A program made the translations under genes and the position numbers. From the NCBI RefSeq assembly GCF_003584125.1, contig NZ_QXFL01000011.1, positions 1 to 64,000 on the forward strand: 64,000 bases of DNA, written 5' to 3'. The notes beneath the pieces were generated by a model. The model was given only the letters and a program-made list of their open reading frames with translations. It was not told the origin of the DNA and ran no database searches. The number at the start of each line of letters is the position of its first letter. Position 1 is the first letter of the stretch. This document shows, piece by piece, positions 39,926 through 60,196 of this stretch. Source of the stretch: Aurantiacibacter zhengii. GTDB taxonomy: Bacteria > Pseudomonadota > Alphaproteobacteria > Sphingomonadales > Sphingomonadaceae.

Positions 39926-39926
39926 G

Positions 39927-39962: not shown

Positions 39963-39997
39963 AATACGGGTTTCAAATCCATCTCCCCGGTCGCGGC

Positions 39998-40111
39998 ATG
40001 GCTCCGATCCGGCGTATTGTATTTCGCTTGACCAAAGCCGCGGCAACAACGAAAGTCCGGACGTCTCTAACGCAGATTCGCACCGCGCTTCGGCGCATCG
40101 CAGCAGCATAG
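39998..40111 (+). CDS. Possible 37-residue basic protein
   Basis: A short reading frame starts MAPIRRIVFRLTKAAATTK and ends RRIAAA, rich in Arg, Lys, Thr and Ala. There is no convincing RBS. Its TAG stop overlaps a perfect AGGAGG (40110-40115). Upstream in-frame sequence is interrupted by the terminator and palindrome, so a longer protein is unlikely. It may be only a chance frame in GC-rich DNA. Confidence 0.25.
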   Translation: MAPIRRIVFRLTKAAATTKVRTSLTQIRTALRRIAAA

Positions 40112-40217
40112 GAGGCAACTTCATCAGCCACGCAATTGCGGGCAGGGTGGTGGTTGTCCGCGCATATGCTGCTTCTGCTGTTCTGCCTCCTCGCTGGCCA
40201 GCAAGAGAGCAGAGACA

Positions 40218-41633: not shown

Positions 41634-41699
41634 GCATGGCGCCCGGTGAGCGCCTGCGCGCACCGGGCTGTCTGCAATTCTATAGCAAGGACACACCCT

Positions 41700-42233
41700 G
41701 TGCCGATCCGCCCTGTCAAACCCGACAACCCGCCCGCTACAACCTCTGGCAAGCCGCCTGTGCGCTCGCGGTCTCGCCCATCTACGCAATCGAATTGCAA
41801 AACCACTACGCCCGAACCGACCGAGCATGAGATGCCGAAGGGAGATGACTATAAGGTCGGCTATCGCAAGCCGCCCGTCGCCACCCGGTTCAAGCCCGGT
41901 AAGTCCGGTAACCCCAAAGGACGCCCCAAGGCAGCGAAGGGCCTGAGCACAATCGTGCGCGATACGCTGACCCAGAAAGTCTCGGTCCGGACAGCGAATG
42001 GCGAAAAGCGCATCAGCCGGATCGAGGCTGCGCTGCACAAGACAATCGAGCTGGCGATGAAGGGCAATCCGCGCGCCCTGGCTCAGTTGATCAAGCTTTA
42101 TGCTGATGCCGTTCCAGACCCGAAGGCCAATGCCGATCAGCAGTCTCCCGATCAGGACCTCACTGCGACCGATATCGCGATGCTCGAAGAACTGCAGCGT
42201 ATGCTGCTTGCTGAAGAGGAGCTGGCCAAATGA
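41700..42233 (+). CDS. DUF5681 protein
   Basis: A small basic protein with the DUF5681 core YKVGYRKPPVATRFKPGKSG and NPKGRPK. This family is typically encoded just upstream of terminase large subunits and may act as a small-terminase-like DNA-binding protein. GTG at 41700 has AAGGA 8 bases upstream and gives 177 residues with a Pro/Ser/Thr-rich lead. The ATG at 41832 (133 residues) starts nearer the conserved core but has no RBS. The stop overlaps the terminase start (ATGA). Confidence 0.8.
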   Translation: MPIRPVKPDNPPATTSGKPPVRSRSRPSTQSNCKTTTPEPTEHEMPKGDDYKVGYRKPPVATRFKPGKSGNPKGRPKAAKGLSTIVRDTLTQKVSVRTANGEKRISRIEAALHKTIELAMKGNPRALAQLIKLYADAVPDPKANADQQSPDQDLTATDIAMLEELQRMLLAEEELAK

Positions 42234-43687
42234 AACTCAACCCTGACCTTCTGTCGGCAGCACGCCGTCAGCATTTCCCGCTGTTCGTCATGAAGGGGTT
42301 CGAGACGCTCCACTCTGGCGAACCACCACTGCAGATGGTCTGGTATCTGCAGGCCACCTGCCACGCGCTAATGGAAATCCATGACGGGACGAAGCGACGG
42401 CTCGTGATCACCAAGCCGCCGCGTCACCTCAAGTCGATCGCGGCATCCGTCGCATTCGTTGCCTGGGTACTTGGGCACGACCCCACGGCGCGGATCATGG
42501 TCGCGAGCTACGGCCAGGACCTTGCCCGCCATCATTCCAACCAGACTCGCATGATCATGGAAAGCGAGTGGTACCGCCGCGACTTCCCTGGCACGCGGAT
42601 CAGCGAGCGTGGCAACCGCGCGCTGGAACTGGAAACGACTGCCGGCGGCGTGCGCAAGGCTGTGTCCGTTGGTGGCTCGATCACGGGCTTCGGGGCCGAC
42701 ATCATCATTGTCGATGACTGCATGAAGGCCGACGAAGCGCGCAGCCCGACCATCCGGCAGGAGCTGCGCAACTGGTACGACAATACCCTGCTCAGCCGGC
42801 TGAACGACAAGGCAACCGGGCGGATCATCTCGATCCAGCAGCGGCTCCACGAAGACGACCTACCCGCCTACCTGCTCGAGAAAGGCTACGACCACCTCAA
42901 CCTGCCAGCAATTGCCACAAAGGATGAAGTGATCCCCATTGGCCCGGACAGGGTGCACCATCGCAAAGTTGGCGATCTCCTCAATCCGGGCCGAGAGGAC
43001 AAGGCCACTCTCGACCAGTTCCGCCGCGACATGGGGCCGGTGGCCTTCTCAGCGCAATATCAGCAGGATCCGATCACTGCCGAAGGCAATATGATCCGCC
43101 TCGACTGGTTCGGCACCTATGACGAAGCGCCGCCCCGTCACCGCTTCATCAAGGTCGTGCAGAGCTGGGACACCGGCATGACCGCGGCACCAACCAGCGA
43201 TTACTCGGTCTGCACGACCTGGGGATTCGAGGTCGAGGAGCGCAAATGGTACTTGCTCGACGTTTTCCGCAAGCGCTTGGACTTTCCCGATCTGAAGCGC
43301 GCCGTGCTTGACCTGCGCAGTCGCTACAGGGCCGACAGGGTGATCATGGAGGAAGCGGGCAGTGGTTTCGCGCTCTACCAGGATCTGCGCTCCACCGGGA
43401 AACTGCGACTGCTCATGATCCCACCGGTCTCGAGCAAGGAAGAGCGTTTCAATGGCTGCCTCGCTGAGGTTGAGGCAGGGCATTTCCTGCTTCCGTGCGA
43501 GGCGCCCTGGCTCGATGACTTTCGCCGCGAGTTGCAGGCGTTCCCAGACGGGAAGTATGACGACCAGACCGACAGTTTCAGCCAGTTTGTACTGTTCCAG
43601 ATGAAGAACTGGCGCTGGCTTCTGACAGAGCGAACGGGCGACGGCAGGGTTCGAACACCTATTCGGCTTCGCAGCCGTCCCTGGTAA
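42230..43687 (+). CDS. Phage terminase large subunit
   Basis: A 485-residue packaging motor. The ATPase domain has the variant P-loop TKPPRHLKSIAASV near residue 60 and Walker B DIIIVDD near 160. The nuclease domain has QSWDTG near 310 and DDQTDSFSQF near 445, the acidic residues expected of the RNase H-like nuclease. It looks intact. No portal, protease, capsid or tail genes are in the window, so it is an orphan terminase. It is in one operon with the DUF5681 gene and probably the methyltransferase. Confidence 0.92.
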   Translation: MKLNPDLLSAARRQHFPLFVMKGFETLHSGEPPLQMVWYLQATCHALMEIHDGTKRRLVITKPPRHLKSIAASVAFVAWVLGHDPTARIMVASYGQDLARHHSNQTRMIMESEWYRRDFPGTRISERGNRALELETTAGGVRKAVSVGGSITGFGADIIIVDDCMKADEARSPTIRQELRNWYDNTLLSRLNDKATGRIISIQQRLHEDDLPAYLLEKGYDHLNLPAIATKDEVIPIGPDRVHHRKVGDLLNPGREDKATLDQFRRDMGPVAFSAQYQQDPITAEGNMIRLDWFGTYDEAPPRHRFIKVVQSWDTGMTAAPTSDYSVCTTWGFEVEERKWYLLDVFRKRLDFPDLKRAVLDLRSRYRADRVIMEEAGSGFALYQDLRSTGKLRLLMIPPVSSKEERFNGCLAEVEAGHFLLPCEAPWLDDFRRELQAFPDGKYDDQTDSFSQFVLFQMKNWRWLLTERTGDGRVRTPIRLRSRPW

Positions 43688-43867: not shown

Positions 43868-46800
43868 GTGAATATCTTCGATCTCGATAGGTCATTGGTC
43901 GAGCGATATGCCTCCTTTTCGCGATCCTTCTCGCGGATTCGCGCACAAGAGATCGCCGATAAGATCGATGCGGTTTATGATTCTGGAAAGTTTTGGCCGG
44001 ACCCGCTGATCACAATCAACCCGCGTTTTGAGAAGGGCGGATCAATCGACAAATTGGTGCAAGAGGGCGTTCTTGATCCAGCACTTGAGCAGATCTTTGC
44101 CTTTGGCAAAGAGCGCCATCCTATCACGCTCCATCGTCACCAAGAGCGTGCAGTTATCAAGGCCCGCGCCAAAGAGAGCTTCGTGGTCACCACGGGTACG
44201 GGTTCGGGCAAATCCTTGTGTTTCTTTGTGCCGATTATCGATGCGATTGTGCGGGCCAAACGAGCAGGCGAAGCGCCCAAGACGCGTGCAATTATCATTT
44301 ATCCGATGAATGCTCTTGCCAATTCGCAGCTTGGCGAAATTCAGAAGTTCGTTGCGGACGCGGATATTCCGGACGACCTCAAGCCGACCGTTGCGCGCTA
44401 CACCGGGCAAGAAAGCGAAGAAGAGCGCAAGGCGATCGCTGAGCAGAAGCCCGACATCATCCTCACAAACTTTATGATGCTCGAGCTGCTTATGACGAGG
44501 CAGTATAAGCTCGACCAAAAGGTCATCGACAACTCGATTGGCCTCGACTTCCTCGTGCTCGACGAGCTCCACACCTACCGTGGCCGTCAGGGAGCTGACG
44601 TCGCGATGCTTGTGCGGCGGGTCAAAGAGCGTCTCGCGCCAAAGAAGCACCTCATCTGTATTGGAACCTCGGCGACGATGTCGAGCTCGCCTGATGAAGT
44701 CGAGCGGGCAAAGAGAGTCTCTGAAGTGGCAACCAAGCTCTTTGGGCAGCCGGTTGCCCATGAGAATGTCATTGATGAGCTTCTTGAGCGAGCAACATGT
44801 CCAGAAGTCAAACCCGCAACTCTCGGCGCGAAGCTCGTCCAGGCAGTCAAGGATGAACTGCCCGACACGCTGACGGACGAGGAGCTCTACAACCATCCGC
44901 TCGCATGCTGGGTCGAAACTGAAATTGGTCTCGACGACGGCGAGAAGCTGAGACGGCGCAAGCCGATTACGCTCAAAGAAGCGGCCAAGAAGCTCGCCAA
45001 ACAGACCAGCGAGGATGAAGATCGGTGCGAGAGCATTCTAGCCAAGATGCTCGGCATCATGGGTACTCCGGAAAAAGACCGTGGCGGTGAGGGTGACCGT
45101 GCCTTCCTCGCCTTCAAACTGCATCGGTTTATTTCGGGCGCAGGTCAGGCCTATGTGACGCTCGAGGCGGCCCAGGAACGCCGTGTCGCACTCGAAGGAC
45201 AAATATATCATCCAGACGATGAAGGGGCGCGCCTTTACCCAGTGTTCTTCTGCCGCGACTGCGGTCAGGAGATACTCTCTGTTACCTATGGACATGACGA
45301 AGATGGGCTCGTTCGAATGTTGGCTAGGCCGATTGATGAACCGGTCAGCGATGAGCCCGACGCATTGGGTGATGAAACGGGTTATCTTGTTCCGGCGGTC
45401 AATGAGGACTTCGACTTCAGCGGAAATCCGGAGGACTATCCGGACAGTTGGCAGGAGACGGCTCCTTCAGGCGAGATCCGCCTAGCTGGTTCGCATCGGG
45501 GTAAGCACGAGGGGCAACACCTCTTTCTCAAACCTGATGGAGCACCTTGCGGCGAGGGTGAAGGAGGAACCCCTTCATGGTTCTTCCGCGGCCCCTATCG
45601 CTTTTGCCCGCATTGCAGTCATCAGCCGGCAAGCCAGGCACGCGAGCGAAACAAGCTTGCTGGTCTTTCAGCCGAGGGACGTAGCTCGGCCACCACGCTG
45701 ATCGTTGCCTCGGTCCTGTCCTGGATGGACCAGGATGCGAGCTTGCGAAAACACTCGCGCAAGCTTCTCGGGTTCACCGATAACCGGCAGGATGCGGCCC
45801 TTCAGGCGGGCCACTTTAATGACTTCATTTTCGTGTCGCTCCTGCGCGGCGCGATCTATCGCGCGGTGGCAGAAGCTGGAGAGGGCGGACTGAAGCCCAG
45901 CCAGTTTGGTGATGCTGTAAGGCGAGCTCTTGGCTTCGACTTGGAGTGGGAGGATCGCCTCGCTGACTGGATGCGTGATCCGAAAGTCAAAGGTTACGGC
46001 AAGCGCCAGGGTGCACAGGAAACGCTTTCTGAAGTGTTGGCGCACCGTCTTTGGGCGGACCTTCGCAAGGGATGGCGCTTTACCAATCCAAACCTTGAAG
46101 ATGTGGGATTGATTGAGGCCCGCTTTATGGGGCTCAGCGACCTTGCGAAGGACGATGAGGAATTTGCCGATTGCCCTCGGTTGGCAGAGCTAACTCCAGA
46201 CAAGCGCGAACAGCTATTTGCGATCCTGTTCGATGCAATGCGCCAATCATTGGCAGTTTCGACGCCAGCTCTCGATCGTGAGCGCATTCGACAAATGGCC
46301 GAGGAAAGCGATGGCCGGCTGCGGCTGCCCTGGGCGATCGATCCTGAAGAAATCAGAGGTCTTCGCGAAAGCGGAATGCTGATGATTGAGGTGCCGAAAC
46401 GCTCACGAATTTCGGCTGCCGATGCAGAGCTTATTCTTCGGGCTGGTGAACGGTCGAACCTTGCCAAGGCACTGCGCGACAAATCGATTTGGGGCGAGAA
46501 GCTCGGGCGCGATGACTATGAAGAGGTTATCAAGGGGCTTCTTTCTGCCGCAGAGAGCCATGAAATCGTCCGCCGAGTGCAATCAGGTTTTGAACTTCCA
46601 GCATGGCGGCTTGCACCAACCAATTTGCGCCTGTTTGCTCAGCCCGATGGCGAGGGAAGTGACAAGCACAACCAATTCTTCCGAACGCTCTATCACGGAG
46701 TGGCGGCCACGCTGGCTGAGAGTGGTCCTCTCCAAAACGCCTTCGAGGCGCGTGAACACACAGCACAGGTTGATAGCGACGTACGGGAATGGCGCGAGCA

Positions 46801-49066
46801 GCGTTTCCGCTTCGAGGACAAAGACCAAAAAGCCCTAATCGAAGAGAAGGAGAAGCTCTTTGAGGCTGGCGAGCAGGGAGATTTCTTGCCTGCTATGTTC
46901 TGTTCACCGACCATGGAGCTCGGTGTCGACATCAGCGCACTCAACGTCGTCTATATGCGCAATGTCCCGCCCACACCTGCGAACTATGCGCAGCGCTCGG
47001 GGCGCGCTGGGCGCAGTGGTCACCCAGCCCTCGTGGTGACCTATTGCGCCGCTCAGTCACCGCACGATCAATACTACTTTGCCGATACTCCGGCGCTCGT
47101 CTCAGGCGTTGTCCGTCCACCGGCGCTCGATCTTGCAAACCAGGACCTTTTGACATCGCACCTGCAGGCTGAATGGCTTGCCCAGGTTGACGCCGCGCTG
47201 GAGGCCTCCATTCGCGACAATCTTGCAATGGATAAGAGCGGGAAGCCGTTGAAGGATGTCATACGTTTGGCAGCCGAGGAAGCGAGCGCTTCTAAGCGAG
47301 CGCGCCCGGTCATGCGGCGGCTAATTGAAGCGATGCTAAGCGATATCGAGCCTGCCGATGCGCCGTGGCTGGAAGATGTTGAGACATTTGTCAACCAGGT
47401 GAACGGTGCAGCTCTCGAGAGTTTCGAGAGGAGTTTTGATAGGTGGCGCAATCTCTATGAGAGCGCGAGAGCCGAGCAGGACAAGGCTCACGCAATTCAG
47501 CAGAAGACCGGGCTCCAGCGAGGGGAACGGCGTGCAGCAAAGAACCGTTATGTGAATGCGACCAAGGAGCTCGAGGTCCTTGAGCGGGGGCAGTCGAAAT
47601 ACGGCTCAGACTTCTACGTCTATCGCTATCTGGCGACCGAAGGCTTCTTGCCAGGATACAATTTTCCTCGTCTCCCGCTCTATGCCTTTGTGCCTGCCGA
47701 CAAGACATCGGTTCTCCAGCGCCCGCGCTTCTTGGCGATTGCTGAATTTGGACCGAACGCGCTTATCTATCATGAGGGACGGGCTTACCGCGTCACCAAG
47801 GCGAAGCTTCCGGCCGAAAGCCGCAGCGATGACGGCAAGCTGTCAACCAACACGCTGATCCTCTGCGGCCAGTGCGGAGCTGCACACAAAGACCCTCTGC
47901 AAGAACGCTGTCATGCTTGCCAATCCTCTCTTGCAGGCGTGGAAAGGATCGACACGGTCTTCCGGATCGACAATGTCGAGACCTCGCCTTCGCTTCGTAT
48001 CACGGCAAATGACGAGGACCGCCAACGCAGAGGCTTTGAAATTCTGACCGTGTTCCAGTGGCCGACGAAAGATGGGGTGCCGCAGATCCGTGGCAGGGTT
48101 GTTGGACAAGGTTCGAACGCTCTACTCCACCTCGACTATGGCCCAGCGACGACGCTTTCGCGGCTTAACAAGGGGCTGAAGCGCCGCAAGAGTAAGTCGA
48201 TCCTGGGCTTCTTCATCGATCCGCAAACAGGGCGCTGGATCAAGGATCCCTCGAGCGGGGATAGCGATGAGGGAATGGGTGATCCTGGAAACGCGCCGCC
48301 GCAGCGCATCGTGCCGATCGTTGAAGATCACAAGAATGCCATGCTGCTGAGGCCAGCCACCAATTTCAGGCCGGACCAGATGGCGACGCTACAGCATGCG
48401 CTGCTGCGCGGCGTTCAAACCGAATTTGAATTGGAGGAAGGGGAGCTTCTTGGCGAGCCGCTTCCGACGCGCGAGGAGCGGAATTGCGTACTTATTTACG
48501 AAGCCACGGAAGGCGGAGCCGGCGTACTCAATCGCCTCGTTTCTGATCCGTCGGCGATCGCCAATGCTGCTACCCGCGCTCTCAAACTCATGCATTATCG
48601 CGAGCCATTTGATGGTGAGGAGCTAGAAGAGCAGGAGGATAGCTGCATCGCTGGCTGCTATCGCTGCCTATTGTCCTATTACAATCAGCCTGATCATGAG
48701 CTGATCGACCGACGCGACAGCGAAGTGGTCGAATACCTTATCGCCCTAAGCCAGTCCGATGACATCAGCGCTGCTAAAGCAAATGCATCTGGTAAAACCA
48801 GTGATGGGAACGAGGCTGGTTCGGATGCTTCCGGTTGGCGAGAAGCCTTCGAGCGGTGGGGAGCACAAGAGCCTAAGGCGCTCGATATCGAAGGCGGCAT
48901 CATCAATTTCTACTGGCCGTCCAGAGATGTCCTGGCGGTGGTTGGTCAGCTAACGGATGCTGCGAAGAGCATCGCCTCTACCCGCGGTATTTTGGATCTC
49001 ATAGAGTTACCAACCGCTCCGGGCGATGAGCCTCCGGCAAGCCTCAAAACAGCATTGGGAATTTGA
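43868..49066 (+). CDS. DISARM-like helicase-DUF1998 protein (apparent DrmA-DrmB fusion)
   Basis: A 1732-residue SF2 helicase. Walker A TTGTGSGKS lies at about 109-117, the DExH-type box LDELHTYRG at about 231, and motifs V-VI MELGVDIS and YAQRSGRAGRSG at about 1010-1050. Several CxxC zinc-binding pairs follow (FFCRDCGQ near 457, FCPHCSH, LCGQCGAAH with CHACQ near 1331-1352). The C-terminus is a DUF1998/MrfA-type domain with EATEGGAGVLNRL and SCIAGCYRCLLSYYNQ near 1590. In DISARM, helicase DrmA and DUF1998 protein DrmB are separate; here both layouts are in one chain of about their combined size. GTG at 43868 has GGGGG 7-8 bases upstream. A MrfA-like repair helicase is the alternative, but the neighbours favour defence. 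Confidence 0.85.
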   Translation: MNIFDLDRSLVERYASFSRSFSRIRAQEIADKIDAVYDSGKFWPDPLITINPRFEKGGSIDKLVQEGVLDPALEQIFAFGKERHPITLHRHQERAVIKARAKESFVVTTGTGSGKSLCFFVPIIDAIVRAKRAGEAPKTRAIIIYPMNALANSQLGEIQKFVADADIPDDLKPTVARYTGQESEEERKAIAEQKPDIILTNFMMLELLMTRQYKLDQKVIDNSIGLDFLVLDELHTYRGRQGADVAMLVRRVKERLAPKKHLICIGTSATMSSSPDEVERAKRVSEVATKLFGQPVAHENVIDELLERATCPEVKPATLGAKLVQAVKDELPDTLTDEELYNHPLACWVETEIGLDDGEKLRRRKPITLKEAAKKLAKQTSEDEDRCESILAKMLGIMGTPEKDRGGEGDRAFLAFKLHRFISGAGQAYVTLEAAQERRVALEGQIYHPDDEGARLYPVFFCRDCGQEILSVTYGHDEDGLVRMLARPIDEPVSDEPDALGDETGYLVPAVNEDFDFSGNPEDYPDSWQETAPSGEIRLAGSHRGKHEGQHLFLKPDGAPCGEGEGGTPSWFFRGPYRFCPHCSHQPASQARERNKLAGLSAEGRSSATTLIVASVLSWMDQDASLRKHSRKLLGFTDNRQDAALQAGHFNDFIFVSLLRGAIYRAVAEAGEGGLKPSQFGDAVRRALGFDLEWEDRLADWMRDPKVKGYGKRQGAQETLSEVLAHRLWADLRKGWRFTNPNLEDVGLIEARFMGLSDLAKDDEEFADCPRLAELTPDKREQLFAILFDAMRQSLAVSTPALDRERIRQMAEESDGRLRLPWAIDPEEIRGLRESGMLMIEVPKRSRISAADAELILRAGERSNLAKALRDKSIWGEKLGRDDYEEVIKGLLSAAESHEIVRRVQSGFELPAWRLAPTNLRLFAQPDGEGSDKHNQFFRTLYHGVAATLAESGPLQNAFEAREHTAQVDSDVREWREQRFRFEDKDQKALIEEKEKLFEAGEQGDFLPAMFCSPTMELGVDISALNVVYMRNVPPTPANYAQRSGRAGRSGHPALVVTYCAAQSPHDQYYFADTPALVSGVVRPPALDLANQDLLTSHLQAEWLAQVDAALEASIRDNLAMDKSGKPLKDVIRLAAEEASASKRARPVMRRLIEAMLSDIEPADAPWLEDVETFVNQVNGAALESFERSFDRWRNLYESARAEQDKAHAIQQKTGLQRGERRAAKNRYVNATKELEVLERGQSKYGSDFYVYRYLATEGFLPGYNFPRLPLYAFVPADKTSVLQRPRFLAIAEFGPNALIYHEGRAYRVTKAKLPAESRSDDGKLSTNTLILCGQCGAAHKDPLQERCHACQSSLAGVERIDTVFRIDNVETSPSLRITANDEDRQRRGFEILTVFQWPTKDGVPQIRGRVVGQGSNALLHLDYGPATTLSRLNKGLKRRKSKSILGFFIDPQTGRWIKDPSSGDSDEGMGDPGNAPPQRIVPIVEDHKNAMLLRPATNFRPDQMATLQHALLRGVQTEFELEEGELLGEPLPTREERNCVLIYEATEGGAGVLNRLVSDPSAIANAATRALKLMHYREPFDGEELEEQEDSCIAGCYRCLLSYYNQPDHELIDRRDSEVVEYLIALSQSDDISAAKANASGKTSDGNEAGSDASGWREAFERWGAQEPKALDIEGGIINFYWPSRDVLAVVGQLTDAAKSIASTRGILDLIELPTAPGDEPPASLKTALGI

Positions 49067-49068
49067 GA

Positions 49069-51858
49069 ATGGACGCTGTGCGTTTCAGCCCTGGCGATTT
49101 GGTCAATGCACGCGGCCGCGAATGGGTGGTCTTGCCATCTCGAGAGGGCTTTCTGCGCGTTCGACCGCTTTCAGGATCGGACGAAGATGCGCAGACGCTC
49201 ATCCCAGCGCTCGAACGCCAACCGGTAAAGCCCGCGCGCTTCGAGCCGCCGACAGCGGATCAGCTCGACACGCAAGCTGGTGCTCAGCTTTTAGCCGATG
49301 CGCTTCGCCTCTCGCTGCGGCGTGGCGCCGGCCCATTCCGGAGCGCAGCGCATCTCGGGGTTGAGCCAAGGGCTTATCAGCTTGTGCCTTTGATGATGGC
49401 GCTGAAATTGTCGCCAGCGCGCCTTTTGATCGCCGATGACGTGGGTATCGGTAAGACCATTGAGGCAGGCATCATTCTTCGCGAATGGCTTGATCGCGGT
49501 ACAATCGACCGGTTCACCGTACTTTGCCCTCCTCACCTGGTTGATCAATGGATCAGCGAGCTCTCGGAAAAGTTTGATATCGATGCGGTCGCAGTGACCT
49601 CGTCCCGGGCGCGCCGACTGGAACGCGGCCTTCCCGCGTCTCAAAGCCTTTTCGAAGCCTACCCCTTCACCGTTGTCAGCCTGGATTACATCAAAGCGGA
49701 CAGTCGCCGCGACGACTTCGCTCGCGCGTGCCCCGATCTCGTGATCGTCGATGAAGCCCATACGTGCGCTGGCAGTGAAGGTGGGACCCACCAGCGTTAT
49801 GAATTGCTGAAAAGCCTGGCGGGCGATGCCGAACGCCATATGCTTTTTTTGACGGCCACACCCCATAGCGGCGATGTGGACGCCTACCAGCGCTTGCTGG
49901 GTCTCGTCGAACCAGATCTCGCCAACCCTCCGCCGCAAGGGGCCGATGAGGCACGGCGTACGCAATACTCTCGCAAGCTTGCGCAGCACTTCGTGCAGCG
50001 CCGACGCCCAGACATTCAGGAGGGATGGGGCGAAGACAAAGCCTTCAAGCCGCATCTTACGAAGTCGGTGCCCTATGAGTTGGTTGGCGAGTATCGGGCG
50101 CTGCAAGAGGACGTGCTCGACTATTCCCTTGAGGTGACCAATCGGTCCGGGAGTGACAAGCGATCGCGTAGGCTCGCATTCTGGAGCACCTTAGCGCTGA
50201 TGCGCTGTGTCGGCTCCTCGCCCGCTGCAGCTGCGAGCGCGCTCAACAACCGTTTATCTGGACTGGCTGAGGCCGAAGAGGTTGAGCCGATCGTGTTCGA
50301 GATGGATGACGGGACGCTTGATGACAGCGACATTGAGCCCGCAACGGCCATGGTCGATGCTGAAGAATATACCGCGCTCACGAAGCTAATCGCACGCGCA
50401 AATGCGCTCGACAATGCCAAGGGCGATGGCGACCCCAAGGTCAAGACTCTTGTCGACGAACTAGCGCCGCTCCTGAAAGCCGGCGCAAACCCAGTTATCT
50501 TTTGCCGCTTTATTGCGACCGCCGAGGCGCTTGGGGAGATACTTCGGTTGAAGTGGCCCAAGCTCCATACGGAAGTGGTGACAGGTCGCTTGACGCCCGA
50601 AGAGCGCCGTGACCGTGTCGAAGACATGGGAGCCAGCGAGCAGAGATTGTTGGTGGCGACCGACTGTCTCTCCGAGGGTATCAACCTGCAAGAGCATTTC
50701 GATACCGTGGTGCATTATGATCTGAGCTGGAACCCGACGAGGCACCAGCAGCGCGAAGGCCGTGTGGATCGCTTTGGACAACAAGCAGAGCAGGTACGCT
50801 CGATCATGCTCCACGGCTCCAATAGTGCGATTGATGGCGCAGTGCTCAAGGTCATTATTCGCAAGGCTGAAGAGATACAGAAGGCGACCGGCGTCAGCGT
50901 GCCGATGCCAGAGGATCAGGACAGCATTACCTCAGCCCTCATGCAGGCCATGCTTATGCGCAAAGGCTCCGAGCATGCGCAGCTAGTGCTCGATTTTGGT
51001 GCCTCAGCAGGAAAGTTCGAGGCGGCATGGCGCGATGCGGCAGAAGGCGCGAAGGCCAGTAGAGCTCGATATGCGCAAAACGCAATGAAGCCGGATGAGG
51101 TCATTCCGGAATGGAAGAAGATGCGTGCGCTGAATGGTGGACCGCGGGAGGTCGAGCGTTTCACCAGGCGCGCACTGCAGCGTCTTGGAGCTGGACTTGA
51201 AGAGGTCTCGGGCCACTATCTCGTCCATTACGACGAGCTTCCTGAAAGCATCAGTGAAAAGCTTCAGGCGCGCAATCTCAAAGGAACGCGGCGCATCTCT
51301 TTCGTCGACGATCCGGCGCAGAACGTTGCGCATGTGGGCCGCGTCCATCCGCTCGTTTCGCATCTTGCGGAGACGCTGAGCGAGGGCGCGCTTGATCCCA
51401 CTTCGTCGGAGACCAAACCTTTGGGGAGGGGCGGTGTCTGGCGAACCTCCGCTGTCCAAGAAGCAACGACATTGCTGGTCATGCGGATGCGCTTCCAGCT
51501 TATCACCAGTGGCCGGACGAGCCGAATGCTTTTGGCCGAAGAGGCTTTGGGCATGGCGTTCGGTCCAGATTCCAGCGCGGCAAAAGCTGAAGGCCCTGAG
51601 GCACTGGCTCTGCTGGAACGCGAGGCTAGTGGTGATCTGGCTGAAGAAGCACGCCAAAGGCACTTGGAGCGAGCGCTCGAAAGAATCAACGAATACAGCG
51701 GTGAGATCGATAGATTGGCGCGCGAGCGAGCAGATCAGCTTTCTGAAGATCACGTCAAGCTGACCCGGGCGGCTGGTGGCGGCGCCACCGTTGAGGTCAG
51801 TGCGGTCATGCCTCCCGATATCATTGGCCTCTATGTGCTTCTGCCGGAGGCAAACTGA
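49069..51858 (+). CDS. SNF2-like helicase, DrmD-like
   Basis: A 929-residue SWI2/SNF2-type ATPase. Walker A is DDVGIGKTIEAG at about 122-133, the DEAH box VIVDEAHTC at about 225, and FLTATPHSGD follows. The C-terminal helicase half has ATDCLSEGINLQEHFD near 530 and HQQREGRVDRFGQ near 560. The last 350 residues are helical and specific to this family. The gene starts 3 bases after the previous stop, and its own stop overlaps the methylase start (TGATG). Its position beside a DrmA/B-like protein and an Eco57I-class methylase matches class 1 DISARM DrmD. Confidence 0.87.
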   Translation: MDAVRFSPGDLVNARGREWVVLPSREGFLRVRPLSGSDEDAQTLIPALERQPVKPARFEPPTADQLDTQAGAQLLADALRLSLRRGAGPFRSAAHLGVEPRAYQLVPLMMALKLSPARLLIADDVGIGKTIEAGIILREWLDRGTIDRFTVLCPPHLVDQWISELSEKFDIDAVAVTSSRARRLERGLPASQSLFEAYPFTVVSLDYIKADSRRDDFARACPDLVIVDEAHTCAGSEGGTHQRYELLKSLAGDAERHMLFLTATPHSGDVDAYQRLLGLVEPDLANPPPQGADEARRTQYSRKLAQHFVQRRRPDIQEGWGEDKAFKPHLTKSVPYELVGEYRALQEDVLDYSLEVTNRSGSDKRSRRLAFWSTLALMRCVGSSPAAAASALNNRLSGLAEAEEVEPIVFEMDDGTLDDSDIEPATAMVDAEEYTALTKLIARANALDNAKGDGDPKVKTLVDELAPLLKAGANPVIFCRFIATAEALGEILRLKWPKLHTEVVTGRLTPEERRDRVEDMGASEQRLLVATDCLSEGINLQEHFDTVVHYDLSWNPTRHQQREGRVDRFGQQAEQVRSIMLHGSNSAIDGAVLKVIIRKAEEIQKATGVSVPMPEDQDSITSALMQAMLMRKGSEHAQLVLDFGASAGKFEAAWRDAAEGAKASRARYAQNAMKPDEVIPEWKKMRALNGGPREVERFTRRALQRLGAGLEEVSGHYLVHYDELPESISEKLQARNLKGTRRISFVDDPAQNVAHVGRVHPLVSHLAETLSEGALDPTSSETKPLGRGGVWRTSAVQEATTLLVMRMRFQLITSGRTSRMLLAEEALGMAFGPDSSAAKAEGPEALALLEREASGDLAEEARQRHLERALERINEYSGEIDRLARERADQLSEDHVKLTRAAGGGATVEVSAVMPPDIIGLYVLLPEAN

Positions 51859-54800
51859 TGGCCAGGTCGCAAAAACGCCTCGCGGATATCGGCTTTACCG
51901 CAATAACAATTGAGGGTGGCCTGATATCGCCCGACCAGGTGGTGAAGGTTGCGAGCACGACGCCTGACCAGAAGACGGCTGCCGAATACAGCTGCCCCAA
52001 GGGCGTTTCACTTCGTGATGAGATCACGCGCTACTTTCAGATCGGGAAAGCCATATGGAAGAGCTTCGCCTCGATAGAGACTCCCACCCAGCAACAGACT
52101 GACGCTTTTGTTGAGGAACTGCTCACAAGCGCATTTGGGTTTGAGCTGACAAGGGCTGGCTCGAGACCGCGAGGCGACAGAAGGTTTGCAATTGCATTTG
52201 AAGGCTCTGACGGCCGTGTTCCCGTCGTCGTTACAGCGCCGCTGAGTCTGGAAGAGGATGGTAAGTCCAAGGACGCATTCACTGTTGGCCGCACGCAATT
52301 TGGTGACGGTGCCAATGGGCGAATTGCCAAGCGCTCAGCGGCCTTGCTGCTCCAGGATTGGCTAAACGCCAATGCGGACTTCTATTGGGGCTTGGTGTTC
52401 GCGGGCGACCGCGTACGCCTGATGCGGGATAACGCCAGCTTTACCCGGCCCGCCTTTATCGAGGCTGACCTCGGAGCGATTTTCCGCGATGACATGTTCG
52501 CGGAGTTCACGGCTTGGTGGCTTCTGACGCACGCCTCGCGCTTCGGCAAAGCAGGTGCGCCTCCCAGCGAAGCTCCGCTTGAGCACTGGCGCGAAGCGGG
52601 GATGGAGGCAGGTACCGCTGTCCGCGATAAGCTGCGCGGGAACGTGGAGAGCGCCCTGCTCGCGATCGGCAAAGGGCTGCTTGGCCACAACCCGGAGCTG
52701 CGCCGCAAGATCGATGACAATGAACTATCGATGCAGTCGCTCTTCGAGCAGATGCTACGGATGGTCTATCGACTGATCTTCCTAGCAGTCGCTGAAGATC
52801 GCGATCTATTGCATGCCCCGGGCACGGCTCGGGCGACGAAGCAACTTTATCAGGAGAACTACGGCTTTGCGTATCTGCGCAATCGCGCGACAAGACGTGG
52901 ATCACGCGACACGCATGGTGATGCATGGGAAGGTCTGAAAATCGTCTTCAGTGCTCTCGCTCGGGGTGAGAAGGATTTGGGGTTGCCTGCCTTGGGTGGT
53001 CTCTTCTCCGCAGACGCGACGCCAGATCTCGAGCAGTGCGCAATACCCAACCGGTATCTGCTCGAAGCCATCTTCAATCTCGGATGGATGATGGAGGAAG
53101 GGCGCCGCGTCCGGATCAACTGGCGTGATATGGCGACGGAAGAATTTGGCAGCGTCTACGAAGGGCTGCTGGAGCTGACCCCCACACGTACGGATGAGGG
53201 ACGCTCCTTCGACTTCGTTGAGGATCTGAAAGGCAATGCCCGCAAGACGTCGGGAAGCTACTACACGCCAGATAGACTCGTGCAGACCCTCCTCGACAGC
53301 GCGCTCAACCCAGTACTCGAGAAAGCAGAAGCCGTGGCTCGCGAAGAAGGCATATTGGATCTGAAGATCATCGATCCTGCCTGCGGCTCTGGGCACTTTC
53401 TGCTGGGCGCCGCTCGCAGAATGGCAACGCGGGTAGCGCAGCTGCGCGATCCTGACGCACCAGACTACAATCGCGCACTACGAGAAGTGGTGGGGCGCTG
53501 CGTCCACGGGGTGGACCGCAACCCAATGGCGGTGGAACTGGCCAAGGTGGCGCTTTGGATCGAGAGTGTTTCCCCGGGGCAACCGCTTGGTTTCCTCGAC
53601 GCCAATATCCGCTGCGGCGACGCGCTGCTGGGCGTGTTCGACCTGGAGGCGCTGGAACAGGGCATTCCCGACGATGCCTACAAGCCGCTGACCGGCGATG
53701 TGAAAGAGGCTGCCGCCTACTACAAGAAGAAGAACAAGGACGAGAAGAAGGGCCAGGGCAGCTTCGATTTCGCCAGCGGCACCGGGGCCATGCCGCCGAA
53801 GAAGCTGGCTGCGAACTTATCCACCATCCGCCGCATGCCGGAAGACACGGTGGGACAGGTTGAAAAGAAGCGCGAGGCGTTCGAGACTTGGAAGAACGAT
53901 CCCGATCGCCGCGCCACTCGCGTCGCCTGCGACTTCTACACCGCCGCCTTCCTCATGACCAAGGTCGAGGTACCGGAGAATTACCAGCGCGGCACCGTGC
54001 CGACCACGGCTGACGTGTGGAAACGCCTTGGCGGGGGGCAGGTCTTCGGTCTGCTCGAAGCCGCCGCTGTGGACGCTTCGGAAGAAGCCCGCGCCTTCCA
54101 CTGGCCGCTCGCCTTTCCCGATGTGCTGATCGGCAAAGGCGGGTTCGATGTCGTGCTGGGCAATCCGCCGTGGGAACGGATCAAACTGCAGGAGCAGGAG
54201 TTCTTCGCCGGTCACGAGGTGGCCGACGCGTCCAACGCCGCCGCGCGCACTCGTGCGATCGCGAAGCTGGCGCAAGCTGAGGAAGGCTCGTCATCGCGTC
54301 TGCTCTACGACGCCTTCCAGACCGCCAAGCGCATCGCTGAGGCGACCAGCGCCTTCGCGCGCGTGTCGGGCGAAGATGGCGGTCGCTACCCCTATACCGG
54401 CACGGGCGACGTCAACACCTACGCTCTGTTTTCGGAGCATTTCCTCAATCTCCTCGAGCAGAGCGGACGTGCGGGGATCATCGTGCCCACCGGCATCGCC
54501 ACCGACGCCACTACCGCGCCGTTCTTCGGCCATCTGGTGAGCGAGAAGCGGCTCGCCCGTCTGTTCGATTTCGAAAACAGCGCACCAATCTTCCCCGGCG
54601 TCCACCGTAGCTTCAAGTTTAGCCTTCTGACGCTCGGCAACGATGTAGACGAGGCAGAGTTTTCCTTCTTCCTTACCGATCCATCGCAGCTTGAAGACAG
54701 CCGTCGGCGCTTCACCCTCTCGCCCGCCGAGATCGCGCGGATCAACCCGAACACAAAAACCGCCCCCGTTTTCCGCGCCCGCAAGGACGCCGAACTGACT

Positions 54801-55919
54801 GCGACCATCTACAACCGTGTGTCCGTGCTGATCGACGAGGCGAAGGGCGGCAAGCCGGGCGAGCCGGGCAATCCATGGGGCATCAGCTTCATGGCGATGT
54901 TCCACATGTCGAACGACAGCCACCTGTTCCGCACCTCCGAACAGCTCGCTGCCGATGGTTGGGAGCGGCAGGGCACCGACTGGGTCCGCCCGTCCGGCGC
55001 GCGCGGCAACACCCCCGGTTTAGCTCTCACCGGTGGCCGGGATACTGCCCACCTCGACCTCTCCACCGGCTCTCCCGCTCCGGCCAGCGAGAAGAGGTAT
55101 GTTCCGCTTTACGAAGCGAAAATGTTTGACCAATTCAACCACCGGTACGCGGATTACAGCGCTCGTGGAGGAGAGCGCGGACACCGAGTACTGCCGGAGC
55201 TTGACGACAGCCGCCTTGCTGATCCAAGCGCCGAGGCCGAACCCTTTTACTGGGTACGTCAAACCGAAGTTGCGTCACGAACCGATGCGTCTTGGTTGAT
55301 GGGCTACGGAGAGGCGACGACCGCGTCCACATCTCGCACGATGGTGATGACAGCATTCCCAGCTACAGGTGTAGGTCACAAAGAGATTGAAGTCTTCTTG
55401 GAAGCCAAACCAAGCAAAAAGGCCGCGTTTCTTGCGAACGCGAACTCAACTGTCCTTGATGTCGTTTGCAGGACGAAGGTCTCTTACCTCAATCTAGGCC
55501 AATACATTGTTAAACAACTCCCCATCCTCCCACCCAGCGCCTACAGCGAGAGCGATCTCGGCTTCATCGTCCCACGGGTGCTGGAGCTCAGCTACACTTC
55601 GCATTCCATGGCCCCCTTTGCGCGCGACCTAGGTTATGAGGGCGAGCCGTTCCGCTGGAACGAGGACCGCCGCGCCCAGCTCCGGGCCGAGCTCGACGCC
55701 TGGTACGCGCTCGCCTACGGCCTCTCCCGCAATGAGCTGCGCTATGTCCTCGATCCCAAGGACGTGATGGGCGAAGACTACCCATCCGAAACCTTCCGCG
55801 TCCTCAAGAACAACGAAATCAGGAAACACGGCGAATACCGCACTCAGCGCCTCGTCCTCGCCGCCTACGACAAGCTGATAGCCGAAGGCATGCGACCGCG
55901 GGTGGAGGGGTATCGGTGA
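51858..55919 (+). CDS. Eco57I-class adenine methyltransferase, DrmMI-like
   Basis: A 1353-residue protein. The SAM motif DPACGSGHFLLGAARRM is near residue 504 and catalytic motif IV LGNPPWERIK near 767. Helical insertions and a probable target-recognition region occupy about 1050-1240. The N-terminal 480 residues resemble the front of type IIG enzymes, but I could not identify a PD-(D/E)XK nuclease site. In DISARM the methylase marks host DNA. Base use is uneven: about 53.5-55.1 kb is richer in G/C-ending codons than the sequence before it and than about 55.13-55.56 kb, which suggests mosaic origin. Confidence 0.87.
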   Translation: MARSQKRLADIGFTAITIEGGLISPDQVVKVASTTPDQKTAAEYSCPKGVSLRDEITRYFQIGKAIWKSFASIETPTQQQTDAFVEELLTSAFGFELTRAGSRPRGDRRFAIAFEGSDGRVPVVVTAPLSLEEDGKSKDAFTVGRTQFGDGANGRIAKRSAALLLQDWLNANADFYWGLVFAGDRVRLMRDNASFTRPAFIEADLGAIFRDDMFAEFTAWWLLTHASRFGKAGAPPSEAPLEHWREAGMEAGTAVRDKLRGNVESALLAIGKGLLGHNPELRRKIDDNELSMQSLFEQMLRMVYRLIFLAVAEDRDLLHAPGTARATKQLYQENYGFAYLRNRATRRGSRDTHGDAWEGLKIVFSALARGEKDLGLPALGGLFSADATPDLEQCAIPNRYLLEAIFNLGWMMEEGRRVRINWRDMATEEFGSVYEGLLELTPTRTDEGRSFDFVEDLKGNARKTSGSYYTPDRLVQTLLDSALNPVLEKAEAVAREEGILDLKIIDPACGSGHFLLGAARRMATRVAQLRDPDAPDYNRALREVVGRCVHGVDRNPMAVELAKVALWIESVSPGQPLGFLDANIRCGDALLGVFDLEALEQGIPDDAYKPLTGDVKEAAAYYKKKNKDEKKGQGSFDFASGTGAMPPKKLAANLSTIRRMPEDTVGQVEKKREAFETWKNDPDRRATRVACDFYTAAFLMTKVEVPENYQRGTVPTTADVWKRLGGGQVFGLLEAAAVDASEEARAFHWPLAFPDVLIGKGGFDVVLGNPPWERIKLQEQEFFAGHEVADASNAAARTRAIAKLAQAEEGSSSRLLYDAFQTAKRIAEATSAFARVSGEDGGRYPYTGTGDVNTYALFSEHFLNLLEQSGRAGIIVPTGIATDATTAPFFGHLVSEKRLARLFDFENSAPIFPGVHRSFKFSLLTLGNDVDEAEFSFFLTDPSQLEDSRRRFTLSPAEIARINPNTKTAPVFRARKDAELTATIYNRVSVLIDEAKGGKPGEPGNPWGISFMAMFHMSNDSHLFRTSEQLAADGWERQGTDWVRPSGARGNTPGLALTGGRDTAHLDLSTGSPAPASEKRYVPLYEAKMFDQFNHRYADYSARGGERGHRVLPELDDSRLADPSAEAEPFYWVRQTEVASRTDASWLMGYGEATTASTSRTMVMTAFPATGVGHKEIEVFLEAKPSKKAAFLANANSTVLDVVCRTKVSYLNLGQYIVKQLPILPPSAYSESDLGFIVPRVLELSYTSHSMAPFARDLGYEGEPFRWNEDRRAQLRAELDAWYALAYGLSRNELRYVLDPKDVMGEDYPSETFRVLKNNEIRKHGEYRTQRLVLAAYDKLIAEGMRPRVEGYR

Positions 55920-56014
55920 ACGAAGTCGTTGCAATCGAGCCGGCCAAAGATCGTGCGGCTATCCCGGCGCTGATCGCTGATCGTAAGCATGTAGGTCAGA
56001 GCCATGCTTCCTGA
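55916..56014 (+). pseudogene. Short frame, possible remnant of a tyrosine integrase N-terminus
   Basis: A 32-codon frame starts at a GTG overlapping the methylase stop (GTGA) and reads MNEVVAIEPAKDRAAIPALI, then stops inside the HNH gene. The wording resembles the lead of sphingomonad tyrosine recombinases, but this is from memory and the match is short. It may equally be a non-functional overlap peptide. Confidence 0.25.
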
Positions 56015-56789
56015 TCATCCCCCACGCATCGAGGATTATCCATACGAGCTACTTTCAGAGCTTAAAGAGTGCGCGAACGAGCACGGCTATCGCATCGGCC
56101 CGGATCAAGCGAAGGGATGGCTTTTCTTTCGGTCGGCCAGCGCGCCTGGTGAGATCGGATTGGCGGCAACAGCATCTGGCATGTCGGGGCCGCTTTATTT
56201 CTCGGTATTCCATCCCGGCGCTGCGCGCGAGCTTGTAGCCCCCGAAACAGCCGAGAAAGCAAGAGGTTCTACCAAGGCATTCACCTTGGATAGCCCCGCT
56301 GCTCTAAGAAAAGCTGTATCGGACGTTTATCGCCTGAGCATCTCTCTACCGACTCTGCCACTTGAGAGTTACCTTCGCGACATCGCTGGGTTGGGCGATA
56401 CGGAAGCCGAGCGAGCCCAGAAGGTACGTATTGGCCAAGACAGATTTCGGGATGCCCAACTTAGCTATTGGAACAGCTGTTGCCCTCTTACGGGAATTAC
56501 AGAGCCAGAATTGCTGCGCGCATCCCATATCATTCCTTGGGCCAAATGTGAGAGCGATGCTGAACGATTGGACGTCCATAACGGCTTTCTCCTGTCGAGC
56601 CTTTGGGATGCGGCATTTGACAGTGGTCTGGTGACCTTTAGCGACGAGGGACTTGCGCTGGCCTCTCCGGCATTGAGCGCTTCTGCTCGTGAAGCTTTGG
56701 GTCTTGATCGCGAGCACCTTCTGACCTTGCACGATGATCATCGCGCTAGGTTGGCCTGGCATCGCGGGAACCTATTCCAGTCGAGCTGA
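56004..56789 (+). CDS. HNH endonuclease
   Basis: A 261-residue protein. The C-terminal HNH domain (about 165-225) reads CPLTGITEPELLRASHIIPW, with the first His in SHI, and then LDVHNGFLLSSLWDAAFD. The catalytic His-Asn pattern is intact. The N-terminal 130 residues form a mixed domain of unknown type (YPYELLSELKECANEHGYRI), perhaps for DNA or modification sensing. It starts 84 bases after the DrmMI-like stop on the same strand and probably belongs to the operon. It could act as the cutting component of the system. Confidence 0.9.
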   Translation: MLPDHPPRIEDYPYELLSELKECANEHGYRIGPDQAKGWLFFRSASAPGEIGLAATASGMSGPLYFSVFHPGAARELVAPETAEKARGSTKAFTLDSPAALRKAVSDVYRLSISLPTLPLESYLRDIAGLGDTEAERAQKVRIGQDRFRDAQLSYWNSCCPLTGITEPELLRASHIIPWAKCESDAERLDVHNGFLLSSLWDAAFDSGLVTFSDEGLALASPALSASAREALGLDREHLLTLHDDHRARLAWHRGNLFQSS

Positions 56790-56982: not shown

Positions 56983-57225
56983 ATGACTGATCAAACTGAA
57001 CCGACCGCAAGTATACTGAAGTCGCGTCAAGGCCCGACCAAAGCCTTTTGCGTCGAGAAACTGCTGTCACGCGCCAAGGGCGCCTCGCTCGCGGAAATAG
57101 TGGAGACGAGCGGATGGCAGCCGCATAGCGCTCGAGCCTTCATGACCGGCCTACGCAAGAAGGGGTACGAACTCGTTCGCGAATGTCGCCCGAGCGGCGA
57201 GACCTGCTGGCGCATCGAGCGCTGA
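56983..57225 (+). CDS. DUF3489 protein
   Basis: An 80-residue winged-helix-like protein with KAFCVEKLLSRAKGASLAEI and WQPHSARAFMTGLRKKGYEL. DUF3489 proteins are routinely found ahead of DUF2924 and a serine recombinase in sphingomonad elements, as here. AGGAG is 8 bases before the ATG. A recombination directionality or regulatory role is plausible but unproven. The 190-base gap before it contains no clear gene. Confidence 0.88.
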   Translation: MTDQTEPTASILKSRQGPTKAFCVEKLLSRAKGASLAEIVETSGWQPHSARAFMTGLRKKGYELVRECRPSGETCWRIER

Positions 57226-57227
57226 GC

Positions 57228-57674
57228 ATGACGCACATTGATGAACAACTCGCTGGGCTGGAGACGATGTCGCCAGCCCGGCTGCGAGCCGAGTGGAAGC
57301 GTCTTCACCGCGGCCAAGCTCTGCTAAATGGAATGACGCCCAGCCAGATGAAGCGCGCAATTGCCTGGCGACTTCAGGAGAAGCTTTATGGCGGCTTGCC
57401 ACCTGCAAGACTACGTGAGCTTGACCGCTTTACCGAGCAACTCGCGAAAGAGGGCAATATTGATATTGGCCAGTCCCAATCGCTCAAACCCGGCTCGCGA
57501 CTGGTCCGCCATTGGCATGGTAAGGCCTATTGCGTGACGGTGCTCGAGGAGGGCTTCGAGTTCGAGGACCGACACTTTTCCTCGCTTACCCAGATCGCAC
57601 GCGAGATCACCGGGGCTGCCTGGTCAGGACCACGTTTCTTCGGGTTAAAAAGTCGCCCGGGTGACGGGGAATGA
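57228..57674 (+). CDS. DUF2924 protein
   Basis: A 148-residue basic protein of the DUF2924 family, with LRAEWKRLHRGQ, AIAWRLQEKLYGGL and the C-terminal KAYCVTVLEEGFEFEDRHF. It starts 2 bases after the DUF3489 stop and ends in a 4-base overlap with the recombinase start. This fixed three-gene order implies a helper role in recombination. Confidence 0.9.
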   Translation: MTHIDEQLAGLETMSPARLRAEWKRLHRGQALLNGMTPSQMKRAIAWRLQEKLYGGLPPARLRELDRFTEQLAKEGNIDIGQSQSLKPGSRLVRHWHGKAYCVTVLEEGFEFEDRHFSSLTQIAREITGAAWSGPRFFGLKSRPGDGE

Positions 57675-59215
57675 CGCAGACCACACCGAAGCGCCGTCGC
57701 TGCGCGATCTATACTCGCAAGTCGACCGAGGAAGGTCTCGAGCTATCCTTCAACAGCTTGGATGCCCAGCGAGAGGCCTGTGCCGCTTTCATTCTCAGCC
57801 AGGCACATGAAGGCTGGAAAGCGATCGATGAGCTCTACGATGACGGTGGCTTCTCAGGTGGCTCAATGGATCGACCTGGTTTGCAGCAGCTGATGGAGGA
57901 TGTCGAAGCGGGTAAGATCGATATCATTGTCGTTTACAAGGTCGATCGGCTCACACGTAGCTTGGCTGACTTCGCCCGGATCGTTGACACCCTCGACAAG
58001 CGCGGTGCGTCCTTTGTCAGTGTCACGCAGGCATTCAACACAACCAACTCCATGGGTAGATTGACCCTAAACGTGCTCCTCTCCTTCGCCCAGTTCGAGC
58101 GAGAGGTTACGGGAGAGCGCATTCGCGACAAAATTGCGGCTTCGAAGAAACGCGGCATGTGGATGGGCGGTGTTGTCCCGCTTGGCTTCGAGGTCAAGGA
58201 CCGCAAACTGCTCATCGTGCCCGAGGAAGCCGAGAAGGTGCGATACATCTTCAATCGCTATCTCGGGCTGGGATCGGTCTATCTGCTGCAATCAGATCTT
58301 GCCGAGCAAGGCATCAGAACCAGGAAGCGCATCCTCAAGGATGGCCGCGTCTACGGGGGCTGTAACTTCAGCAGGGGCGCGCTCTATCAGATGCTCGCGA
58401 ACCGCATCTACCTCGGCGAGATTACCCATCACGGCAAATCTTATCCAGGCGAGCACGATGGCATCATCGACCCGGAGACCTTCGAGAAGGTTGCGACGCG
58501 ATTGTCGCTGAACCGGGTCAGGCGCAAATATGGAGAGCACGCCGTACAAGCTAGCGTGCTAGCTGGCATTATCTGGGATGGGGAAGGACGGCGGATGACG
58601 CCAGACCACGCAAGCAAGAAGGGACAGCGCTATCGTTATTACGCCAGCCTGAAGAACAAGGAACGACCAGAACTTCGCATCCACCGCTTGCCTGCAAGCG
58701 AGATCGAGAAGCTGGTGATCCATCAGCTGGCGACGAAGACCGAGGCCAGCTGGGAAGGGCCCATTCCATCACGCGAGCTCGTCCTCGAATACGTCGAAAA
58801 GGTGACGGTTAACTCCGATCGGGTCGATATCCTCTTTCAGGGTGCAGCTGAGTCGATCACTGTTGAGGCACCATTGATCCGCTGCGGTGGTGAAGTGCGG
58901 ATCGATGCACCGGGGCAGGACTGGGCAGAGGCACGGCGAGATCCCCCACTCATCAAGCTGATTGTCCGCGCGCACCAGGCAAAGGCAGCAATCGAAGATC
59001 CGGCCGTTGCGTCGGTCGATACTGCAGCGGAGAACCTGAATGTTTCAAAGCAATATTTCTGCAGGCTGCTGCGCCTTGCTTATCTTGCACCTGACATTAC
59101 CGCGTCAATTATTGACGGAAAGCAGCCTGTTCATCTCAACCGTCAGTTCATGGCGCGGGTCAACAACTTGCCTCTCGACTGGGCGAGCCAACGCGAGATG
59201 CTCGGCTTTGGATGA
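57671..59215 (+). CDS. Large serine recombinase (right)
   Basis: A 514-residue recombinase. The nucleophile Ser about 18 is in AIYTRKSTEEGLELSFNSL, and the resolvase core continues with VYKVDRLTRSLADFARI. The recombinase domain contains YLLQSDLAEQGIRTRKR and GALYQMLANRIYLGE. A C-terminal HTH is visible near 450-500 (NLNVSKQYFCRLLRLAYLAP). It is only distantly like the left recombinase, so the island carries two independent recombination modules. It looks intact. Confidence 0.94.
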   Translation: MTQTTPKRRRCAIYTRKSTEEGLELSFNSLDAQREACAAFILSQAHEGWKAIDELYDDGGFSGGSMDRPGLQQLMEDVEAGKIDIIVVYKVDRLTRSLADFARIVDTLDKRGASFVSVTQAFNTTNSMGRLTLNVLLSFAQFEREVTGERIRDKIAASKKRGMWMGGVVPLGFEVKDRKLLIVPEEAEKVRYIFNRYLGLGSVYLLQSDLAEQGIRTRKRILKDGRVYGGCNFSRGALYQMLANRIYLGEITHHGKSYPGEHDGIIDPETFEKVATRLSLNRVRRKYGEHAVQASVLAGIIWDGEGRRMTPDHASKKGQRYRYYASLKNKERPELRIHRLPASEIEKLVIHQLATKTEASWEGPIPSRELVLEYVEKVTVNSDRVDILFQGAAESITVEAPLIRCGGEVRIDAPGQDWAEARRDPPLIKLIVRAHQAKAAIEDPAVASVDTAAENLNVSKQYFCRLLRLAYLAPDITASIIDGKQPVHLNRQFMARVNNLPLDWASQREMLGFG

Positions 59216-60195: not shown

Positions 60196-60196
60196 G

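Follow-up and report, generated by a model that had tools for sequence, protein, structure and literature searches.

The 64,000 nucleotide stretch of Aurantiacibacter zhengii DNA analysed here (positions 1 to 64,000 of contig NZ_QXFL01000011.1, "the window" below) contains an operon of four tightly packed, co-directional + strand genes, which we compare with the ARMADA, DISARM and Druantia systems. The first gene (43868-49066, GTG start) encodes a 1732 residue, ArmC-like YprA-family superfamily 2 (SF2) helicase, identified by Pfam and by PADLOC DruE models; the second (49063-51858, TTG start, with an alternative in-frame ATG at 49069) encodes a 931 residue SNF2/RapA (BrxHII-like) helicase, identified by Pfam, PADLOC and solved RapA chains; the third (51858-55919), whose ATG overlaps the TGA of the SNF2 gene, encodes a 1353 residue Eco57I/PglX-like N6-adenine methylase, identified by Pfam, PADLOC DrmMI models and motifs; and the fourth (56004-56789), which begins 84 bp past the methylase gene, encodes a 261 residue HNH nuclease (Pfam and AlphaFold2) that consists of an N-terminal domain (about residues 1-115), a helix and the HNH domain. 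The Pfam matches, all above that database's cut-offs, are DEAD (residues 90-277), Helicase_C (979-1051) and MZB (1508-1601; the DUF1998 zinc domain) in the first protein, Helicase_C and SNF2-rel_dom in the second, Eco57I and N6_Mtase in the third and HNH_2 in the fourth, and the first three proteins carry the motifs GTGSGKS and DELH, DEAH, and DPACGSG and NPPW, respectively. A preliminary description made from the sequence alone had reported such an operon, with an SF2 helicase with DUF1998, an SNF2 helicase, an Eco57I methylase and an HNH protein, and the gene calls and Pfam bear it out.

The arrangement recurs elsewhere, as that description had required of a real association between the large helicase and the SNF2 and methylase genes. 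An SNF2 relative at E ≤ 1e-100 occurs in 7 of the 385 class genomes and 13 of the 398 phylum genomes searched (the window's own genome being counted in both), and of the 121 loci that we scored, which had been fetched for a matching SNF2 or YprA protein, 117 have relatives of the three core genes together on a single strand; the operon is therefore not a chance assembly. ARMADA was named and described in the preprint of Bell et al. 2025 (PMC12458937), whose main text defines the ARMADA types by clade and operon and gives the Type I order as "generally" YprA, BrxHII-like and PglX-like, an order that is not strict. According to the same text, the YprA helicase typically forms a single chain with its OB-CON-DUF1998 part, DISARM being the consistently split branch, and a Vsr nuclease that is predicted to be active stands at the end of the Type I and Type II helicases. 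A BrxA-like insertion and an HTH/coiled-coil finger in the helicase also belong to the Type I description. The window operon is like ARMADA Type I in its one-chain YprA helicase with DUF1998/MZB, its BrxHII/RapA-like SNF2 helicase, its PglX-like methylase and the order YprA, SNF2, methylase, and it is the gene order that speaks for placing it with Type I and not Type II. It is unlike Type I in that the Vsr active site has been lost and an HNH gene follows the core genes, and because the predicted active Vsr is thus not found we file it as a variant and not as a canonical member.

The remnant of the Vsr-type domain lies at the C-terminus of the helicase (about residues 1651-1732; 48818-49063, + strand) and was recognized by alignments, Pfam DUF559 and AlphaFold2. 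Among 10 aligned helicases, those from Roseomonas, Deinococcus and Rhodococcus plasmids end with D-F-x-Y/F followed by F-I/V-D-G-P-x-H, and the other seven, the window helicase among them, do not have those residues and are missing about 10 positions. Pfam DUF559, which we take to be a Vsr-like nuclease family, reaches its cut-off in all five intact tails tried and in none of four lost tails. By sequence, then, the catalytic residues of the window's Vsr-type domain are changed or deleted. The AlphaFold2 model of the tail has a mean predicted local distance difference test (pLDDT) score of 81 and a predicted template modelling score of 0.58, and its well-modelled part runs alpha-beta-beta-beta-alpha-beta-alpha. 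Structure comparison with VIA-align gave the I-Bth0305I catalytic domain as the best match (Z 7.2, root mean square deviation (rmsd) 3.1 over 78 residues), a weak match (Z < 8) that is tied with a mitoribosome chain at Z 7.0, and Foldseek returned no match to the helicase tail at E ≤ 0.001; for these reasons we call it only likely, from the model, that the Vsr fold has been kept.

The HNH protein, by comparison, has an intact motif, H175 being present in all 68 family sequences and N193 in 67 of them (two of the 68 are duplicates), and AlphaFold2 models it with a pLDDT of 96.2. Its C-terminal part resembles VcaM4I (Z 15.9, rmsd 5.4 over 137 residues; profile match E 8.1e-38) and TagI (Z 9.0, rmsd 3.0 over 105). 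VcaM4I is described as an EVE-HNH endonuclease whose linker helix (residues 148-178) restrains the nuclease and whose bare HNH domain is toxic (PMC7897488); a similar gating of the ARMADA HNH protein would be an analogy with that enzyme. Unlike VcaM4I, the window protein has an N-terminal domain for which the structure search run gave no EVE match and nothing clearly like a known modification sensor; residues 12-115 gave weak matches only, among them the C-terminal domain of T4 MotA (Z 6.2, rmsd 3.7 over 91). We claim no fold for this domain, and a sensor fold (EVE, SRA or another) is possible.

Vsr state and HNH presence were compared across loci as follows: the 121 scored loci (the window, 80 genome-contig loci, 21 plasmid loci, 3 viral loci and 16 further genome loci) are the 133 loaded records minus 2 own-genome stretches and 10 viral loci, and removal of 17 loci without a full helicase frame left 104, from which 3 duplicates were removed to give 101 non-redundant loci. 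Tails were classed as intact, lost or borderline by our own motif pattern. A first count required an uncut methylase gene with 4.5 kb or more of sequence after it and an HNH match above 100 bits; in the final count a locus was assessable with at least 4 kb beyond the methylase gene or a whole-genome or whole-record search, the HNH match had to exceed 70 bits, and HNH was set as present by hand for loci L008, L047 and L058 after a closer look. Where Vsr is lost, HNH is present in 60 loci, absent from 1 and not assessable in 7; where Vsr is intact the corresponding numbers are 5, 25 and 1. HNH thus accompanies 60 of 61 assessable Vsr-lost loci versus 5 of 30 assessable Vsr-intact loci (Fisher p 2e-16, a value that treats relatives as independent). 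Two of the Vsr-lost loci counted as having HNH (L074 and L082) have an HNH frame that is cut by the contig or locus end. For 17 of the 25 loci in which Vsr is intact and HNH absent, the absence comes from a search of the whole genome or record, and four of these searches (L045, L084, L089 and L113) gave only partial or weak HNH matches elsewhere; two (L093 and L094) rest on their viral records, and six (L121, L123, L124, L125, L127 and L128) on room alone. Whole-genome searches of 14 further Vsr-lost loci or genomes with an early contig end found a full-length HNH family member in seven (L031, L041, L048, L050, L059, L066 and, in two pieces, L033), a result that places it in the genome and does not imply a position in the operon, and fragment or HNH-domain matches only in two (L028 and L085). 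The viral contigs gave 13 loci, 3 of which have the operon's helicase, and the phage records gave 2 weak matches. Separately, a plasmid copy in Acinetobacter soli (L130:13995-19304) has its YprA gene broken into 4 frames, and that system is probably decayed.

The HNH family is also nearly confined to such loci in its full-length form. Its profile at E ≤ 1e-30 matches 12 of 385 genomes of the class, 4 over its full length and 8 only in a stretch that starts at about position 95 or beyond, and three of the four full-length matches are among the seven genomes with the SNF2 gene (hypergeometric p 1.5e-5, or 6e-4 without the window's own genome). The fourth sits directly after an SNF2 fragment that is likely a remnant. 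Of the remaining four genomes with the SNF2 gene, G131 and G233 have an intact Vsr and no HNH match, G288 has lost Vsr and has no HNH match, and in G316 the locus is cut short.

In a FastTree phylogeny of the 101 loci, 67 of the Vsr-lost rows fall into a single clade (support 98), with L008 and the two borderline loci L122 and L129 elsewhere, and 2 changes of Vsr state and 4 of HNH are needed. We also chose 33 of the 101 rows for a mixture-model tree, in which the HNH-bearing rows and L045 lie on one side of a branch with a Shimodaira-Hasegawa-like approximate likelihood ratio test (SH-aLRT) value of 99.7; inside that branch are the betaproteobacterial loci with both nucleases, the large Vsr-lost clade and L008, which has lost Vsr and whose HNH gene was located across the origin of its plasmid record. 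Support for the node that splits off L008 is 92. FastTree instead groups the betaproteobacterial rows with HNH-less rows (support 93). Taken together, the trees favour an order in which HNH was gained first and Vsr was lost later, perhaps twice, and a single gain of HNH is likely, though not proven.

We read these observations, with somewhat more belief than doubt, as indicating an ARMADA Type I-like anti-phage operon that belongs to a sub-branch with a changed cutting enzyme, of which the fourth gene looks like a core part. Because no active site is left in the Vsr domain that is fused to the YprA helicase, cutting would be performed by the HNH protein. In such a system the methylase would mark host DNA at adenine, the ATP-driven SNF2 and YprA helicases would load on invading DNA that is unmarked or partly single-stranded and translocate along it, and the separate HNH protein would cut the DNA; the dead Vsr domain may persist as a docking surface, and the N-terminal part of the HNH protein may keep it inactive until the complex meets target DNA. 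DruE of Druantia III is reported to load on 3' single-stranded DNA and to cut long DNA (PMC13192584), which supports the helicase step by kinship only. The fuller history, to which we give slightly less than even credence, is that in a branch of ARMADA Type I found in several bacterial phyla HNH was gained once and coexisted with Vsr (as in the betaproteobacteria), after which the Vsr site decayed, its fold was kept as a scaffold and cutting passed to a gated HNH subunit.

A number of observations weigh against this interpretation. There are only one or two independent Vsr losses, and with so few independent pairs no test can be significant; an independent-pairs sign test was dropped for the same reason. 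The distance correlations of HNH over 58 loci count in favour of the interpretation (0.866 with YprA and 0.888 with SNF2; methylase-YprA gives 0.749 and SNF2-YprA 0.964), but the partial correlation of HNH-YprA given SNF2 is 0.085, so the co-divergence of HNH reflects shared descent and not a special bond. Five betaproteobacterial loci (L047, L051, L052, L058 and L061) carry both nucleases, and strict complementarity of the two was rejected on that ground; both borderline tails (L122 and L129) are without HNH; and L005, the single assessable Vsr-lost locus that lacks HNH, has none on its plasmid, where an IS21 lies directly after the methylase gene. Five of the 14 early-ended Vsr-lost genomes (L053, L054, L083, L088 and G288, the genome of L106) gave no HNH match. 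The methylase-HNH spacing varies from -33 to 4336 bp over the 58 loci, with other genes between. The range aligned with VcaM4I starts at that protein's residue 168 and so covers only the end of its linker helix, a further difference from that enzyme which makes both the changed-enzyme reading and the hand-over of cutting to a gated HNH subunit slightly less likely. Finally, it speaks for the interpretation that ARMADA Type II gives E. coli a protection that depends on each of its own four genes (PMC12458937), but the experiments in that main text are on Type II, and no published test of Type I activity was found in the literature covered.

The most serious competitor, which we nonetheless consider unlikely, is that the core genes block phage alone and that HNH travels with them as an auxiliary nuclease of the modification-dependent kind (Type IV), directed against phages whose modified DNA escapes the core. 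Both VcaM4I and TagI, which its HNH domain resembles, are modification-dependent, and auxiliary HNH enzymes are described beside BREX and BREX-related systems in a paper (PMC12839542) whose main text does not contain the words YprA, DUF1998, ARMADA or Vsr; the variable spacing would also suit an auxiliary role. Such a role sits less well with the retention of HNH in all but one of the assessable Vsr-lost loci when several Vsr-intact groups do without it, or with an N-terminal domain for which the structure search brought up no known modification sensor as a clear match. The spacing and the intervening genes would also fit an HNH gene that is a defence-island passenger with no tie to ARMADA, but its retention, its intact motif and the fact that full-length members are nearly restricted to these loci make that quite improbable. 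One gene that lies between methylase and HNH is SMC-like (L003:23435-25417 and relatives), in 25 of the 58 loci and not in the window; it is annotated as chromosome segregation protein SMC or DUF2326 and has a weak LmuB match (53.1 bits).

The preliminary description had favoured a compact class 1 DISARM in which the 1732 residue protein merges DrmA and DrmB with a junction near residue 1100-1300. Part of this stands: the operon is DISARM-related, of a defence type and found elsewhere, and its SNF2 helicase and methylase match DrmD (262.9 bits) and DrmMI (231.6 bits) in PADLOC, its YprA-type helicase being related as well. The fusion itself does not. Over its whole chain the helicase matches DruE best (293.3 bits, against 53.3 for the best DrmA model); profile scans of the two sides of the supposed junction gave DruE at 258.7 and DrmA at 55.1 bits in residues 1-1099, and only DruE models (best 50.2 bits) and one chance match in residues 1100-1732, where the 7 families matched at E ≤ 1 include no DrmB model. 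With NCBIfam, the DrmA model scores 1368.2 bits on the DrmA of a Nocardioides plasmid and 20.3 on the window helicase, whose scores of 20.3 and 18.9 compare with cut-offs of 950 and 999, and DrmB_fam does not match the window helicase's C-terminal part. DrmB_fam does match the DrmB of the Nocardioides DISARM locus (280.5 bits, cut-off 240), a doubtful control because only residues 37-379 of 729 are covered, so that the pairwise score with it counts little. In pairwise comparison with proteins of that plasmid the window helicase scores 944 bits with the ARMADA-type helicase (identical in 626 of 1673 columns), against 37.0 with DrmA and 26.6 with DrmB. Unlike class 1 DISARM, then, helicase and DUF1998 are in one chain with no DrmB match, and the fourth protein is an HNH nuclease, no PLD nuclease (DrmC) being matched by Pfam among the four proteins; a fusion by descent is refuted by these sequence scores, and we regard a compact DISARM of this kind as barely credible. 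On the Nocardioides plasmid (L121:3685-28772) annotated DrmA and DrmB genes, a cytosine methylase gene, an ARMADA-type trio and an AAA ATPase/McrC pair follow one another, with the DrmA/DrmB genes about 4 kb from the trio; its DrmB is perhaps damaged.

An MrfA/YprA repair helicase, which the same description had named as the outcome that would overturn it if the match ran along the whole length, was likewise rejected. MrfA (6znp) scores 79.9 bits, with its best stretch at 80-275, and is third among solved chains after a 2108 residue DEAD/DEAH box helicase (140.7 bits) and a 1970 residue helicase (90.7 bits), both of which we would guess, from length alone, to be Druantia proteins. DruE is the closest PADLOC family of the window helicase, but the other three genes of the operon encode an SNF2 helicase, a DrmMI-like methylase and HNH, and no Druantia partner protein is among the four proteins' listed PADLOC hits (the best 25 for three of them).

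If the interpretation that we prefer, an ARMADA Type I-like branch with HNH as its cutting enzyme, is true, it names a probable core subunit and predicts where the cutting activity of the branch is located. No assignment of HNH to ARMADA Type I was found in the literature searched, which includes the main text of PMC12458937, and in that text HNH occurs once, in a reference title. The loci would also provide a natural series, from Vsr only through both to HNH only, for the study of helicase-nuclease coupling in YprA-type defence.

The SNF2 helicase also has some bearing on annotation. The PADLOC model PDLC02853, labelled DpdE, covers almost all of this protein (663.6 bits, DrmD being next) and is the one that fits it best; ARMADA-type SNF2 genes may be reported through it as Dpd, a system with 7-deazaguanine genes beside DpdE. 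In NCBIfam the protein has a DpdE score far below the cut-off (183.6 versus 500) and a higher DrmD score (296, cut-off 610), and the best solved relative is RapA. The methylase is, by its sequence matches, a DrmMI/Type IIG-like adenine methylase.

In 2 kb steps the guanine plus cytosine (G+C) fraction is 0.61-0.67 before 36 kb and 0.53-0.62 from there to the window end, and the SNF2 gene is absent from both other same-genus genomes in the class search; the low G+C and this absence are consistent with horizontal gain. The operon is flanked by phage- or plasmid-like genes (36441-43687 and 57183-59215), with which it perhaps forms an integrated element: a serine recombinase gene (36441), RepB/ParB-type genes (38015 and 38905), a ParB-methylase fusion (40218), a DUF5681 gene (41646) and a terminase large subunit-like gene (42230) on one side, and a DUF2924 gene (57183) and a second serine recombinase gene (57671) downstream. 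Of direct repeats that might mark the ends of such an element, only two short imperfect pairs were found, neither usable. A tRNA-Val (tac) gene at 63457-63532 (- strand), near the end of the low G+C region, is a possible integration site. Also downstream are a small gene (59686-60252) with a sub-threshold PIN match and, adjoining it, a second Eco57I-type methylase gene (60197-62965, - strand), whose product has a TaqI_C-like specificity domain and a best PADLOC match to Type IIG at 190.8 bits.

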